DNA of 33,174 nucleotides from a virus. Both the position numbers and the translations under genes were made by a program. Below, piece by piece: positions 12,614-22,429 of the stretch. The stretch lies in the IMG/VR virus record IMGVR_UViG_3300021247_000152, positions 1 to 33,174 of that record; one strand, written 5' to 3'. Every line of letters starts with the position of its first letter. The first letter of the stretch is position 1. A model generated the notes under the pieces. The model ran no database searches. It saw only the letters and a list, made by a program, of their open reading frames with translations, and had not been told where the DNA came from.

Positions 12614-12621
12614 TATCTTTG
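12614..12621 (+). promoter_or_regulatory. -7 box of structured RNA A
   Basis: TATCTTTG matches TAnnTTTG. No clear TTTG element is present at the expected distance upstream, so the promoter is incomplete or activator-dependent. The expected start is about 12626-12629, just before the first stem-loop. Confidence 0.55.
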
Positions 12622-12626
12622 CAGTA

Positions 12627-12720
12627 TAACAGACGCAAATTTATAGTAGTGCATAGATTTGTGTTTGAAAGTTCAAACGGAACTGGGGGAAGGTAAGCAC
12701 TACACCGACCCCCTTTTTTT
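12627..12720 (+). ncRNA. Structured RNA A with a loop-to-terminator-loop interaction
   Basis: About 94 nt between the early genes and the replication gene, with no coding frame. Hairpin 1: 12633-12644 pairs with 12653-12664 (12 bp, two G-U), loop AGTAGTGC. Hairpin 2: GTTTGA 12663-12668 with TCAAAC 12673-12678, loop AAGT. Hairpin 3: the terminator 12685-12713, loop AAGCACTAC. GTAGTGC (12646-12652) in loop 1 is perfectly complementary to GCACTAC (12697-12703) in the terminator loop. RNA B at 21326 has the same plan with different loop sequences. Function unknown: a small RNA, attenuator or antitermination element for the replication gene are candidates. The base-pairing is seen directly; that it is a real RNA is inference. 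Confidence 0.65.
12685..12720 (+). terminator. Intrinsic terminator of RNA A
   Basis: GGGGG 12685-12689 pairs with CCCCC 12709-12713. GGT 12692-12694 pairs with ACC 12704-12706 across an AA/GA internal loop. Seven T follow (12714-12720). The replication gene starts only 5 nt later, so read-through would feed it. Confidence 0.85.
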
Positions 12721-12725
12721 ATTTT

Positions 12726-13436
12726 ATGAAAGAAAATCATAATTGGGCAGCAGTTATACCATGCAGATATCTAATGAGCAAGGATATAAATAGCAGTCAA
12801 AAGTTACTGATTGGCTTAATATCAAGCCTTTCAAATCTTAAAGGTTACTGTTTTGCATCAAATGACTACCTTGCTGATTGTCTTAACATAAGCAAAATAA
12901 CTACCAGTCAGTTGATATCTGACCTTGAAAAGAAAGGTTACATAGGTAGGATTATTTACAGAAATGATAAGAAGCAGGTTGAGCAAAGAATTTTGACTTT
13001 AGTATTAGATAAATACCCACCATTGGAAAACGATATACCTATAGTTGAAAACCATAATACCCTCCCATTGAATTCCAATATACCTCCCATTGAAAACCGA
13101 AAAGATAATATAAAGGTTAATAGTAATATTAATAATAAGATTAATAATACAGTACCTACGGTTGAAATGGTTGAGGATTATTTTTCTGAGAAGGAAAGAC
13201 CTGACCTTGCTGAACAGTTCTTTGACTTCTATACCTCAAATGGTTGGATGGTCGGGAAGAACAAAATGAAAGATTATAAATCTGCAATTAGAAACTGGAT
13301 TAGAAACGATAAAAAATTTAATAAAAATGTTACCACTAAATCAAATCTTGACGGCTACAATCAACGAAGAAACGAAGTCCATGACTATGTCGCAGAACTT
13401 GACAGAATCAGAGGCTTTGGACCTGGAACGCTTTAA
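12726..13436 (+). CDS. DnaD-like replication initiation protein
   Basis: This 236-aa protein has an N-terminal winged helix of the phage replication-initiator type (SSQKLLIGLISSLSNLKG, then ASNDYLADCLNISKITTSQL, about 24-75), an N/P-rich linker (about 95-140), and a C-terminal DnaD-like segment (AEQFFDFYTSNGWMVGKNKM, YKSAIRNWI). In the family the first domain binds origin DNA and the second helps load helicase. Origin iterons may lie in its linker-coding DNA (AT-rich around 13090-13160), but none is clear. No replicative helicase is encoded nearby, so the host enzyme is probably used. It starts right after the RNA A terminator. Confidence 0.75.
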   Translation: MKENHNWAAVIPCRYLMSKDINSSQKLLIGLISSLSNLKGYCFASNDYLADCLNISKITTSQLISDLEKKGYIGRIIYRNDKKQVEQRILTLVLDKYPPLENDIPIVENHNTLPLNSNIPPIENRKDNIKVNSNINNKINNTVPTVEMVEDYFSEKERPDLAEQFFDFYTSNGWMVGKNKMKDYKSAIRNWIRNDKKFNKNVTTKSNLDGYNQRRNEVHDYVAELDRIRGFGPGTL

Positions 13437-18186: not shown

Positions 18187-19377
18187 ATGAATCCAGTTAA
18201 AGTTAAAATAAACGAAGTAAAGTCTAATCCGAACAATCCAAGAATCATCAAGGATGACAAGTTTCAAAAGTTAGTCAAGTCTATCAAGGAGTTCCCTGAG
18301 ATGCTTAACATTAGACCTATTGTGGTAAATGCTGACATGGTTGTACTCGGTGGCAATATGCGACTGAAGGCTTGTAAAGAAGCAGGGATTAAAGAGGTAG
18401 CAATCATCAAAGCAGATGACCTAACAGATGAACAACAGAAGCAGTTTATCATTAAGGATAATGTTGGGTTCGGTGAGTGGGATTGGGAAGACCTTGCTAA
18501 CAACTGGGATGCTGAACAGTTAACAGATTGGGGGTTAGATATACCCGACTTTAAACCTGAAGTCCTTGAAGCAGAAGAAGATGATTTTTCAGTACCTGAT
18601 GGGGGTATTGAAACCGATATTGTCCTCGGTGATTTATTTGAGATAGGTGAGCATCGTTTGCTTTGCGGAGATTCAACGGATAGCGACCAGGTTGCAAAAT
18701 TGATGAATGGAGAAAAGGCAGACATGGTATTTACTGACCCGCCTTATGGGGTAAGTTATACTGGAGGGGTTATACATGGAAATAAAATTAATACTAACAA
18801 TAAAAGAGAAATGCTGAAAAATGATGAGATTGATTTATATTCTGATTTTATTTCACTATTGCCATTAGTTATTGATAATGGACCATTATATATATTTTAT
18901 GCAACAAGAAATTCATATCAGATATTTAAACCATTGCATGAAAATGGTATAGATATTATGGCAGTATTGGCATGGGTCAAAATAAATACTGGATATGCTG
19001 ACATGAATAGTCATTATAAAAACAGATATGAACCATGCGTTTATGCGAAGATTGGTAAGTCAACAAATTGGGTTGGACCTACTGACGAAAATACAACATG
19101 GGAAATTGAGAAGGACAGAAATAATAAATTACATCCAACCCAAAAACCAATATCAGTTCCGGAAAGGGCAATAAAAAACCACAATGCTAATTTGATAATG
19201 GACTTTTTTAGCGGTTCAGGTTCAACAATGGTTGCATCACATCAACTCAAACGAAAATGCTACGGAATGGAATTAGACCCGAAATATTGCCAAGTCATAG
19301 TGGATAGGATGCTCAAACTTGACCCAAGTTTAGAGGTAAAAAGGAATGGCATAAAATATATCAAAACAACGGAATAA
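18187..19377 (+). CDS. ParB-like domain / DNA methyltransferase fusion
   Basis: This 396-aa protein has an N-terminal ParB/Srx-like domain (about 1-110: NPNNPRIIKDDKFQKLVKSI, VVLGGNMRLKA) joined to an amino-methyltransferase. Its motifs are VFTDPPYGVSY with DPPY at 184-187, HPTQKP 316-321, then MDFFSGSGSTMVA with the SAM-binding FxGxG at 341-347. DPPY before FxGxG gives the beta-class order; it would methylate adenine N6 or cytosine N4. The stretch coding for about 195-330 is more AT-rich than the rest, which may mark a swapped target-recognition part. Likely roles are evasion of host restriction or marking DNA for packaging. It lies just before the terminase genes. Confidence 0.88.
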   Translation: MNPVKVKINEVKSNPNNPRIIKDDKFQKLVKSIKEFPEMLNIRPIVVNADMVVLGGNMRLKACKEAGIKEVAIIKADDLTDEQQKQFIIKDNVGFGEWDWEDLANNWDAEQLTDWGLDIPDFKPEVLEAEEDDFSVPDGGIETDIVLGDLFEIGEHRLLCGDSTDSDQVAKLMNGEKADMVFTDPPYGVSYTGGVIHGNKINTNNKREMLKNDEIDLYSDFISLLPLVIDNGPLYIFYATRNSYQIFKPLHENGIDIMAVLAWVKINTGYADMNSHYKNRYEPCVYAKIGKSTNWVGPTDENTTWEIEKDRNNKLHPTQKPISVPERAIKNHNANLIMDFFSGSGSTMVASHQLKRKCYGMELDPKYCQVIVDRMLKLDPSLEVKRNGIKYIKTTE

Positions 19378-19384
19378 CAAAGGG

Positions 19385-19765
19385 ATGGCAAAGAAGATAC
19401 CACAAGCACATGGAGGGGTTTTATCTATACCTCAGAAGGGAGAAACCAACAACCCGAACGGCAGACCGAGGAAGTATGTTTCCCTTTTGAAAGAGCAGGG
19501 GTACAAACTGGCAGAGGTGAACGATTGCATCCAAGCAATTATGAGCATGGATATGCAGGAACTCAAAGCGGTATGGGATAACCCGAAGGCAACTGTACTG
19601 GAGAAAACCATTGCAGGGGCATTGAGGAAGTCATTGGAGAAGGGAAGTCTTTATTCCATTGATACCCTACTTACCAGGGTATATGGCAAACCAAAGGAAA
19701 CTGCTCATATAACAAATGACGGGAAAATTGAGGTGGTATTTACTAAGGGTAAAACGATTCTATGA
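19385..19765 (+). CDS. Small terminase subunit, probable
   Basis: This 126-aa protein begins with a basic arm (GETNNPNGRPRKYVSLLKEQ), has a helical middle, and ends with SIDTLLTRVYGKPKETAHIT and a beta tail. The NPNGRPRK motif and the LLTRVYGKPKE segment are typical of the small proteins directly upstream of terL in Bacteroidota phages. It overlaps terL by ATGA. The role, DNA recognition at the packaging site, follows from position. Confidence 0.65.
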   Translation: MAKKIPQAHGGVLSIPQKGETNNPNGRPRKYVSLLKEQGYKLAEVNDCIQAIMSMDMQELKAVWDNPKATVLEKTIAGALRKSLEKGSLYSIDTLLTRVYGKPKETAHITNDGKIEVVFTKGKTIL

Positions 19766-20919
19766 TTATTGAACTACCTGAACCACATACAAACCAAATA
19801 GGTATCATTGAATCAGATGCAAGGTTTAGGGTAGTAATGTGTGGCAGAAGGTTTGGCAAGTCAGAACTATCCCAAGTAGAAATCATTAAGAATGCCATTG
19901 TAGGGCAATCTGTTGCCTATATTACCCCTACTTATAACCTTGCCAAGACTTTCTTTGATAAACTTGCTAAAGCCGTACCATTCGCCTCTAATAGGTCTGA
20001 TTTAACTATTGAGTTCCCAAATGGCGGTTCGGTTCAGTTCTTTACTGGGGAAAGGTTAGATAACCTGCGAGGCAGGAAATTCCATTTGGTAGTGGTAGAT
20101 GAGGCATCTTTCATACCTAACCTTGAAGATGGGTGGTTGAATAGCATCAGACCCACCCTTACAGATTATAAGGGGAAAGCATTGTTCTTGTCAACCCCAA
20201 AGGGGAAGAACTATTTTTACTCTCTTTTTATGAAAGGGAACGGAGGTGAGGAAGATTGGGCATCGTTCAAGTTCAGCACTTATGATAACCCATACATAGA
20301 CAAGAGTGAGGTAGATTCTGCAAGGATGCAACTGCCTGAAGTGGTTTTTGAGCAAGAGTATATGGCAAACCCTGCTGAGAATGCTGCCAACCCTTTTGGG
20401 TCTGCATTCATTCGGCAATGCATTTACCCTATGTCTACCAACCCAGTCGCTTGTTATGGCATTGACCTTGCCAAGTCGGTGGACTTTACAGTTATAACGG
20501 GGTTAGATAAGAATGGGTCTGTATGCCATTTTGAGAGGTTTCAGAAGGATTGGAGGCAGACAAAAGAGTATATCATCAACTTACCTAAAGCACCTATCCT
20601 GATGGATTCTACGGGGGTAGGAGACCCAATCTTTGAGGATATGCAACGGGAGGGGTTAGATGTGCAAGGGTATAAGTTCAGTTCTACATCAAAGCAGATG
20701 CTTATGGAGGGTCTTGCCTCTGCCATACACCAAAGGAAAATAACCTACCCAGCAGGACCAATTGTAGATGAGTTGGAAATCTTTGAATATCAGTACACCT
20801 CCTACGGGGTAAAGTACTCAGCACCTCAGGGATTCCATGATGACTGCTGCGTATCTCTTGCTCTTGCCTGGAAACATTATCAACAACATGGGCAACAAGG
20901 TCGCTATTCTTTTGCGTGA
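19762..20919 (+). CDS. terL: Large terminase subunit
   Basis: This 385-aa protein has Walker A CGRRFGKS (27-34), Walker B LVVVDEA (109-115) and the coupling motif STP (144-146). The C-terminal RNase H-like nuclease has Asp235 (YGIDLAKSVD), Asp282 (MDSTGVGD) and Asp360-361 (FHDDCCVSLALA). All ATPase and nuclease residues are present, so it should be an active packaging motor that also cuts the concatemer. It is short for the family but complete. It is followed by a 9-bp triple repeat and a new promoter. Confidence 0.95.
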   Translation: MIIELPEPHTNQIGIIESDARFRVVMCGRRFGKSELSQVEIIKNAIVGQSVAYITPTYNLAKTFFDKLAKAVPFASNRSDLTIEFPNGGSVQFFTGERLDNLRGRKFHLVVVDEASFIPNLEDGWLNSIRPTLTDYKGKALFLSTPKGKNYFYSLFMKGNGGEEDWASFKFSTYDNPYIDKSEVDSARMQLPEVVFEQEYMANPAENAANPFGSAFIRQCIYPMSTNPVACYGIDLAKSVDFTVITGLDKNGSVCHFERFQKDWRQTKEYIINLPKAPILMDSTGVGDPIFEDMQREGLDVQGYKFSSTSKQMLMEGLASAIHQRKITYPAGPIVDELEIFEYQYTSYGVKYSAPQGFHDDCCVSLALAWKHYQQHGQQGRYSFA

Positions 20920-20983: not shown

Positions 20984-21013
20984 TTTGCAGTATTGATTTA
21001 TTGTTTATCTTTG
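20984..21013 (+). promoter_or_regulatory. Bacteroidota-type promoter of the 65-aa gene
   Basis: TTTG 20984-20987 and TATCTTTG 21006-21013, 18 nt apart. The leader up to the ATG at 21043 nearly repeats the leader after the early promoter at 9198. Confidence 0.75.
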
Positions 21014-21042
21014 AAAAACAAATCACAACAAAAACAAATCAC

Positions 21043-21240
21043 ATGAACACTCAACAACTTATCTCAAAATTGAATCCACAAGAAGTACTGGTTAATTCTT
21101 CTAATTATTTGCAATGTATTATAAATGGTAATTTTTGTGAGTTCCAAATTGACTACATGAATGATAAAAAGTGGTATCAGTTTGAATCTAAAGGAAGGGC
21201 AAAGTCACCGATAGAAAAATTTATCAAATGGATTGCATAA
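21043..21240 (+). CDS. 65-aa protein in its own transcription unit
   Basis: I choose ATG 21043 because the alternative TTG at 21001 lies within the promoter and because AATCAC precedes the ATG, as for other early genes. The product (QQLISKLNPQEVLVNSSNYL, FCEFQIDYMNDKKWYQFES) is a small alpha/beta protein ending PIEKFIKWIA. With its own promoter and a strong terminator at 21248 it is a moron-like unit set between terminase and tail genes. Early expression is likely. Family not recognised; a host-defence or takeover function is possible. Confidence 0.7.
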   Translation: MNTQQLISKLNPQEVLVNSSNYLQCIINGNFCEFQIDYMNDKKWYQFESKGRAKSPIEKFIKWIA

Positions 21241-21247
21241 ATCATCA

Positions 21248-21271
21248 GGGAGGTTCGCCTCCCTTTTTTTT
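21248..21271 (+). terminator. Intrinsic terminator with TTCG tetraloop
   Basis: GGGAGG 21248-21253, loop TTCG, CCTCCC 21258-21263, then eight T (21264-21271). It closes the 65-aa gene unit. Confidence 0.95.
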
Positions 21272-21312: not shown

Positions 21313-21320
21313 TATTTTTG
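21313..21320 (+). promoter_or_regulatory. -7 box of structured RNA B
   Basis: TATTTTTG matches TAnnTTTG. An imperfect TTAG stands 18 nt upstream (21291-21294) in place of TTTG. The region between contains an imperfect inverted repeat AAAGTT/AACTTT that may be an operator. Confidence 0.55.
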
Positions 21321-21325
21321 CTAAG

Positions 21326-21427
21326 TCAATCCGATTAGGTAGTTGCGGTATTTATTCGGGTTTGATTTTAGCAAACCTGCTACGATTAGACCCATACATC
21401 CGCAACATGTGTGGGTTCTTTTTTTTT
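21326..21427 (+). ncRNA. Structured RNA B, relative of RNA A
   Basis: About 100 nt. Hairpin 1: 21331-21341 with 21349-21359 (10 pairs, one T-T mismatch), loop GTTGCGG. Hairpin 2: GTTTG 21360-21364 with CAAAC 21372-21376, loop ATTTTAG. Hairpin 3: terminator 21389-21417, loop TCCGCAACA. Loop 1 (21342-21348) is perfectly complementary to CCGCAAC (21400-21406) in the terminator loop. The order, the GTTTG/CAAAC hairpin, the 9-nt terminator loop, the 7-bp loop pairing and the 11-12 nt spacing from the -7 box all match RNA A, while loop sequences differ. A competing pairing 21357-21364/21372-21379 extends hairpin 2. Function unknown. Confidence 0.65.
21389..21427 (+). terminator. Intrinsic terminator of RNA B
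   Basis: A 10-bp stem 21389-21398/21408-21417 (core ACCCATACA/TGTGTGGGT) with a 9-nt loop is followed by C and nine T (21419-21427). Confidence 0.85.
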
Positions 21428-21733
21428 ACCTATCTTCGGAATGATTGGGTCTTAACACGGGTTCACCCCAACTTTAGCACAAAAAGTAAATGAATGAACG
21501 TGTCATCTATGCTTAACAGTCTGCCTCTGGAACAGACTGGAGATGATAAGAACGGGATAAAAGTGGTAGTAACACAATGATAACTACCGACAAGGATAAC
21601 CAAAAAACCCGTTCTCCCTTCTTGGATGGGGGTGCATAGTTTGGCAATGATTGGGAGTGCTAAAGAATCCCATGAAGTCAAGGGGTATCCTTGGATAGAC
21701 ATTGTATTACACTTAACCTCAAATCAACTATTT
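21428..21733 (+). other. Long leader region before the tail genes, no clear gene
   Basis: About 300 nt without a convincing gene. It holds a 7-bp hairpin (21517-21523/21533-21539, CAGTCTG/CAGACTG). It also holds a nested structure: AGAACGGG 21549-21556 pairs with CCCGTTCT 21608-21615, enclosing GGTAGT 21565-21570/ACTACC 21583-21588. Two tiny frames coupled by ATGA lie across it: 21494-21580 (28 codons, with LNSLPLEQTGDDKNGIKVVV) and 21577-21639 (20 codons). They could be microproteins or chance. The tail-chaperone frame is open back to ATG 21626. Confidence 0.5.
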
Positions 21734-22429
21734 ATGGGTATGACTTGGCAAGATGTAACAGTATTTCAGTACCAACAGATTAATGACCTTTACCTGAATA
21801 ACTATGAGAAAGGTAGTGACCTTACTGACCTTGACATAAGTATCAAGGTTACATCTATTCTGAAGAACATGACTGAGCATCAGATAGATTCTTTACCAGT
21901 TAAAGAACTTGGTCCTTTGCTTGAATCTATCAGCTTTGTTCATCAGGATATCCAACCCAAAGCAGTAGACAGAATCAAAGTCAATGGTAGGGTTTACAAA
22001 TGCATCTACGATGTAAGGAGTATGCCTGCTGCAAGGTATATTGAATCTAAGCACTTCAGTTCAGATGTGATGGGAAACCTGCACAAGATATTTGCTTGTA
22101 TGGTTATACCTCAAAAGAAGACTTGGTTTGGTTGGAAGGATGACAAATACGATGCAAGTAAGCATTCTGAATACGCACAAGACATCCTTGAAGCACCAAT
22201 TGTAAACGTACTCGGTTCGGTTGTTTTTTTTTATCAAGTTTACAGACTTTGGATAAAGAATTCTCGGGACTATTTGGTCAAGCAGATGATGGAGGCGAAG
22301 ATAACGGAGAAGGAGGCAGAGAAGGCATGGGAGGCTTTATGCACCATTATGGATGGATATACCAAGCCAAACTGGTTGCCGACTTTGAAGGCATCTCACT
22401 TAACCAAGCATTTGACTTACCTACAATAA
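21734..22429 (+). CDS. Tail assembly chaperone, zero-frame product
   Basis: I start at ATG 21734 (231 aa), where GMTWQDVTVFQYQQINDLYL begins the recognisable domain; ATG 21740, 21647 and 21626 are alternatives. Helices through VTSILKNMTEHQIDSLPVKE, then VNGRVYKCIYDVRSMPAARY and KKTWFGWKDDKYDASKHSEY lead to LGSVVFFYQVYRLW, which is encoded over the T9 run at 22224. The position before tail and tape-measure genes, and an overlapping -1 frame downstream, match the G/GT chaperone system in which a fraction of ribosomes shift. The zero frame continues 66 codons past T9, which is longer than usual. Confidence 0.6.
   Translation: MGMTWQDVTVFQYQQINDLYLNNYEKGSDLTDLDISIKVTSILKNMTEHQIDSLPVKELGPLLESISFVHQDIQPKAVDRIKVNGRVYKCIYDVRSMPAARYIESKHFSSDVMGNLHKIFACMVIPQKKTWFGWKDDKYDASKHSEYAQDILEAPIVNVLGSVVFFYQVYRLWIKNSRDYLVKQMMEAKITEKEAEKAWEALCTIMDGYTKPNWLPTLKASHLTKHLTYLQ
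22224..22232 (+). other. Probable -1 ribosomal frameshift site (T9)
   Basis: Nine T read in zero frame as gTT-TTT-TTT-Tat. The heptamer T-TTT-TTT (22225-22231) fits the X-XXY-YYZ slippery pattern. After a -1 slip, reading continues at TTA 22231 into the frame that ends at 22512. Confidence 0.55.

Follow-up and report, generated by a model that had tools for sequence, protein, structure and literature searches.

What kind of RNA, if any, is encoded at positions 21313-21427 of the window (the whole 33,174-nt stretch of viral DNA analyzed here), and why are two of its loops exact complements of each other? A preliminary description had read in this non-coding sequence a -7 promoter box followed by two hairpins and a terminator, had paired the loops of hairpin 1 and the terminator over 7 nt, and had proposed that the RNA and a second copy in the same genome represent a new family under selection for structure. 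We re-read the elements of this RNA (RNA B) in the sequence and recovered all of them where they had been placed. The parts that we retained after comparative analysis, all on the forward strand, are:

21313-21320, forward strand: -7 promoter box TATTTTTG (read from the sequence)
21331-21341, forward strand: 5' arm of hairpin 1 (four hairpin 1 pairs with two-sided changes)
21342-21348, forward strand: 7-nt loop GTTGCGG of hairpin 1, first half of the kissing helix (7/7 pairs covary)
21349-21359, forward strand: 3' arm of hairpin 1 (covariation alignment)
21369-21382, forward strand: middle hairpin TAGCA-AACC-TGCTA (two-sided changes at 4/5 pairs)
21390-21416, forward strand: terminator hairpin ACCCATACAT...ATGTGTGGGT (terminator call and covariation)
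21400-21406, forward strand: terminator loop CCGCAAC, second half of the kissing helix (covariation)
21419-21427, forward strand: terminator U-run, the 3' end of the RNA (read from the sequence)

Two details of the earlier reading changed. Hairpin 1 spans 21331-21359 and its first C lies 10 nt from the -7 box rather than 11. Further, the small GTTTG/CAAAC hairpin assigned to the middle of RNA B showed no two-sided change in any relative and was rejected, with the possible exception of a subgroup with GGTCT/AGACC (L012, L106 and L114) in which an equivalent can be drawn; the overlapping UAGCA-AACC-UGCUA hairpin and its variants covary instead. The TAnnTTTG motif was mapped at -12 to -5 in Flavobacterium psychrophilum (PMC9723704), and this spacing predicts that transcription of RNA B starts at 21325, the G of GUCAAUCCG, giving an RNA of ~100 nt up to the U-run. 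Among the relatives listed, TAnnTTTG or TAnnTTCG stands 5' of the RNA B homologues. The promoter type suggests that the phages, known mostly from metagenomic contigs, infect Bacteroidota. On the evidence of sequence, RNA B is a ~100-nt module of predicted promoter, leader and terminator.

Relatives were collected without imposing the loop sequences. A TerL search retrieved 80 related viral loci, many of which carried, according to an RNA descriptor, the B module with other loops. A DNA pattern that left both loops free, fixing no more than the outer portions of hairpin 1 together with the sequence 3' of the hairpin, matched 47 stretches in viral contigs, and these and other loci yielded 41 distinct RNA B homologues. 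The loop pair, described earlier for the window copy alone, was perfectly complementary over 6-8 nt in every one (41/41). In a covariation alignment of 27 sequences, which contained 15 different loop pairs, the kissing helix had two-sided changes at 7/7 pairs and was paired in 100% of the cells; none of its 186 pairs was a G-U wobble, vs 38 of the 677 stem pairs. The structure scored as a whole (hairpin 1, middle hairpin, terminator and kissing helix) reached a covariation score of 0.376 compared with 0.132 in shuffles, none of which (0/500) attained the observed score, and sliding the structure along the alignment gave 0.108 at most. The fold z-score of the window copy was -4.6. Together, the z-score, the covariation relative to shuffles and the uniformly complementary loops indicate that the structure did not arise by chance, in agreement with the proposal of selection on structure. 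The comparison shows a 7-bp Watson-Crick helix between the loops of hairpin 1 and the terminator, which all relatives retain although the bases that form it differ. RNA B has the comparative hallmarks of a kissing-loop RNA: two complementary covarying loops, each on its own supported stem. The mean pairwise difference in the kissing helix (0.374) was no higher than in the middle stem (0.386), so that diversifying selection on the loops finds no support. Other segments were invariant among relatives (GUCAAUCCGA, UCGGGUUUGAUU and the AACC loop).

A covariance model of RNA B recovered 38 loci from the first search set and four additional ones from the second, among them a divergent copy (L504) with loops that are complementary by eye. 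The eight phage records that we examined each contained one strong copy. The preliminary description had held that absence from related phages would argue against a family and had suggested a comparison with Rfam; we found relatives in dozens of phage contigs, and at curated gathering thresholds Rfam 15 returned no family for either structured RNA of the window. The best sub-threshold match to RNA B was trpB, with 24.7 bits vs the 59 required, and a known Rfam identity was rejected. Among the relatives and downstream stretches of the loci tested, Rfam recognized only a tRNA. The case for a candidate new RNA family was strengthened by these results, and the underlying observation proved stronger than first described. 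Searches elsewhere were negative. Among the matches listed from a pattern scan of genome contigs, those inspected looked like chance, and the B model, run without a positive control, had no hit among 395 genomes of the class to which a Flavobacteriaceae MAG belongs. In the collections searched, no cultured phage matched at the DNA level the loci of L402, L088 and L348 that carry RNA B and its downstream stretch, and none matched the L199 and L073 leaders. No module was seen around the replication-type genes of six phage records, among them Lactobacillus c5, Staphylococcus EW and a Porphyromonas phage. In searches of open-licence papers, we came across no account of this RNA.

The second copy in the window (RNA A, 12614-12720 with its -7 box) has the following parts:

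12614-12621, forward strand: -7 box TATCTTTG (read from the sequence)
12634-12720, forward strand: RNA A, with hairpin 1, a small GTTTG/CAAAC hairpin, a terminator and a U-run
12646-12652, forward strand: hairpin 1 loop GTAGTGC
12685-12713, forward strand: terminator, with the loop complement GCACTAC at 12697-12703
12714-12720, forward strand: U-run
12726-13436, forward strand: replication-initiation gene, its ATG 5 nt 3' of the U-run

RNA A shares the plan of RNA B, as the preliminary description had recognized, but the claim that they are two copies of one family had to be divided, because the B covariance model does not detect RNA A: its sole match in the window (E ≤ 0.05) was 21325-21417. 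By sequence comparison, RNA A and RNA B are separate families with one predicted architecture. Within the same phage or closely related loci, A and B loops were complementary to each other over 3-5 nt vs 7-8 nt within each RNA, a low cross-complementarity that is as expected if the two must not interact but that also fits chance.

The position of RNA A in front of a replication-initiation gene proved to be part of a wider distribution of unrelated copies that the earlier reading had missed. All the A-type loops (GTAGTGC, GTAGTGTG, GTAGTGAG, GTAGAGTG and GTAGTATG) had an exact complement, and in all the loci inspected the leaders of type A and of a further family, C, ended a few nucleotides before the ATG of genes from several replication-type families. 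For an unbiased set, we fetched 80 loci by protein similarity to one replication-type gene, using as query the N-terminus read from L073 and ~14 further residues that were approximate and affected only which loci were fetched. The set contained 54 distinct upstream regions long enough for kissing-hairpin scoring, 43 of which reached the score, compared with 1 of 1080 dinucleotide shuffles; these leaders usually stop a few nucleotides short of the ATG. Of the distinct regions, 38 are C-family members, which have three loop pairs among them and hence are not independent. We also found upstream the types E (GTCGGAT/ATCCGAC), L552 (GTACGAG/CTCGTAC), L569 (GTAGGAT/ATCCTAC) and L571 (CTAGGGA/TCCCTAG), and a leader with the loop pair GTCGCATC/GATGCGAC (L538), not all of which passed the strict score. 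A common GCCC...GGGC base may point to a distant relationship among types E, L552, L569 and L571. More distant relatives of the replication gene (L133-L204) were mostly without a recognizable module.

The plan also extended to phages with TATAAT-type promoters and Shine-Dalgarno sequences, where it precedes two different genes and has two compensated loop pairs (GTTGCGG/CCGCAAC and AGTGCGG/CCGCACT). Kissing-loop leaders with TATAAT-type promoters were seen in L192 (2560-2720), L199 (2440-2600), L601 and L602, where two different genes are preceded by almost identical leaders. Similar leaders are present in a few phages whose promoters are sigma70-like. Separately, a long imperfect hairpin (GGGTAGTGCCTGCTG...CAACAGTAGGCATTACCC) without a kissing pair lies 5' of a MAKDPA-type replication gene in L555 and is possibly a rod-type version of the leader.

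The surroundings of RNA B differ from those of RNA A. Two neighbors are relevant:

19762-20919, forward strand: large terminase subunit gene (terL), upstream of RNA B (family matches)
21430-21735, forward strand: structured non-coding stretch (D) of class W, directly 3' of RNA B (fold comparison)

The placement after terL that the preliminary description had noted is true of the window group but is no rule, as several relatives sit at other positions in larger phages. What had been overlooked is the second structured stretch, of variable class, behind RNA B. Non-coding sequence followed RNA B in 94/94 loci with enough sequence, and the next forward open reading frame (ORF) usually began ~360-540 nt from the RNA B start in the loci that were mapped. 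The downstream stretches of ~250-400 nt, exemplified by window positions 21430-21735, L003, L112, L348 and L396, fall into five unrelated classes. Their fold z-scores relative to column-shuffled alignments were -15 (class 2), -7.5 (class 3), -3.9 (class W) and -6.7 (a class-5 pair). Most of the compensated pairs came from classes 2, 3 and 5, and the window copy of D alone folds weakly (z of -1.6). When class 2 was searched for without RNA B, the new stretches, apart from those truncated by a contig end, likewise had RNA B upstream. Each downstream class may be a new RNA family, and D may have its own -7 box (TATCTTCG) shortly 3' of the RNA B U-run.

Our preferred reading is that these modules are conditional terminators, that is, leaders that act as attenuators, and we put its probability at about one half. 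The main argument comes from the A, C and E types, in which promoter, terminator and gene follow one another at a fixed close spacing: a terminator 5-12 nt before a start codon is likely to be conditional, since the gene would otherwise be silent. The loop-loop helix most likely sets the outcome because no other feature is conserved in all families. Read-through into the downstream gene or RNA would then depend on the loop-loop contact, which could form in cis, inside an RNA still being transcribed, or in trans, with copies already released; covariation cannot separate cis from trans kissing. If the contact forms in trans, the released RNAs would specifically repress further synthesis of their own kind, much like RNAI in ColE1-type plasmids, and a changed loop pair would create a new specificity that does not interact with the old one. 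The contact may be inter-molecular, given that hairpin 1, the middle hairpin and the terminator could follow one another with hardly any linker sequence between them. Against the attenuator stands the layout of RNA B itself, which precedes a structured non-coding stretch and not directly a gene; and if class W has its own promoter, as it may, RNA B could end as a free RNA without read-through. As a tentative and rather doubtful extension, the loop pair could serve as a self-recognition code, with released leaders kissing nascent copies of the same type to enforce termination before the replication gene (RNA A) and D (RNA B). Were this so, a phage would gauge how many copies of its own genome are present and silence superinfecting relatives with the same code. 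Loop variants would then correspond to the incompatibility groups of plasmids or to immunity groups, specified by a self-complementary RNA from a single strand.

A possible competitor to the attenuator is a free-standing phage small RNA, in which the kiss, by closing the molecule on itself or linking two copies, builds a stable scaffold with trans activity on host or phage factors, and the terminator is a mere 3' end. The predicted start and end, which delimit a compact ~100-nt RNA with nearly all nucleotides paired in the comparative fold, and the invariant segments and AACC loop, which offer a candidate binding site, are what such an RNA should have, but it would not be expected to hold a strict place before replication ATGs, as the A-, C- and E-type copies do. 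The fold itself could be different: a long nested rod (AAUCC/GGGUU, the loop helix and GGGUUUGAU/AUUAGACCC) would form an antiterminator with the same 7 bp inside and no kissing hairpins. The window copy and roughly two fifths of the relatives have this rod as their single-strand minimum free energy structure, so that the kissing form rests on comparison and not on folding energy, and the rod helices are paired in 98.5% of the cells. The helices unique to the rod, however, have one-sided changes only, whereas hairpin 1 and the terminator have two-sided ones; moreover, RNA A of the window folds as separate hairpins, and families A and C keep the loop pair yet cannot, by eye, form the rod. We consider the rod unlikely as the sole structure, though it may be the second state of a switch.

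Other explanations are harder to reconcile with the evidence. Phage phi29-group pRNAs keep complementary loops while the sequences change, and this likeness, with the position of RNA B next to terL in the window group, could suggest a packaging RNA that forms a ring of copies at the portal by inter-molecular loop pairing. This is improbable given that many B relatives lie away from terL, that the A, C and E types precede replication genes, and that the window phage has a large terminase gene: the neighbor of RNA B matches large terminase families and not a phi29-type packaging ATPase. Gene context thus disfavors the packaging RNA, and the resemblance to pRNA is confined to loops on one RNA that change together between phages, the fold and gene context being different and the large terminase often far off. 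It is similarly hard to credit that template switching between inverted 7-mers (quasipalindrome correction) preserves the identity of the loops without selection on the RNA; perfect complementarity without wobble intermediates is what it would produce, but the arms on either side of the loops also covary in the manner of RNA stems, and the plan is common to several sequence families. That A and B are two ordinary terminators, alike by chance, has next to no probability: both do have a G+C-rich hairpin followed by a U-run, but compensated perfect loop pairs in all B relatives and essentially none in shuffles rule this out.

The closest known systems come from plasmids and phages. Copy-number control by RNAI/RNAII in ColE1-type plasmids uses kissing hairpins (PMC9458437). 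Like the leaders described here, it places a loop-loop RNA contact near replication control, and loop changes create compatible, non-interacting types. The ColE1 system, however, comprises two RNAs from opposite strands that act on a primer, whereas the leader carries both loops in the same RNA, the second within a terminator, before a protein gene or a structured RNA; with both complementary loops on one strand, no antisense RNA is required. In plasmids of the pT181/pIP501 type, a terminator in the leader of the rep gene responds to a counter-transcribed antisense RNA that triggers termination. The site of the terminator, in a replication-initiation gene leader, is the same, but the complementarity found here needs no antisense partner. 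The immunity RNAs of phages P4 and P1, with premature termination in P4, resemble our leaders in plan as small phage RNAs with short complementary segments in their own leader, but they act in prophage immunity. GOLLD and ROOL, also structured RNAs carried by phages, have covarying loop-loop contacts that were demonstrated to be inter-molecular (PMC12286853), but they are several hundred nucleotides long and form caged multimers, whereas RNA B has ~100 nt, a terminator and no Rfam model.

The leaders therefore look like an apparently undescribed class of RNA control switch, widespread before phage replication genes and absent from Rfam. If so, RNA loop pairing would govern replication onset in many phages, as it does in some plasmids. 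As specificity determinants, the loop pairs are simple and can be tested, with possible use as orthogonal regulators, and the exchangeable structured stretches behind RNA B are candidates for further undescribed RNAs.

Other features were noted around terL in the window. Positions 21001-21264, between terL and RNA B, hold a 79 aa ORF with a -7 box at 21006, identical to that of RNA A (TATCTTTG), and its own terminator at 21247-21264; its place is taken by other small ORFs in related phages. A ParB-like N-terminal domain is fused to a DNA methyltransferase at 18187-19377, two genes upstream of terL.
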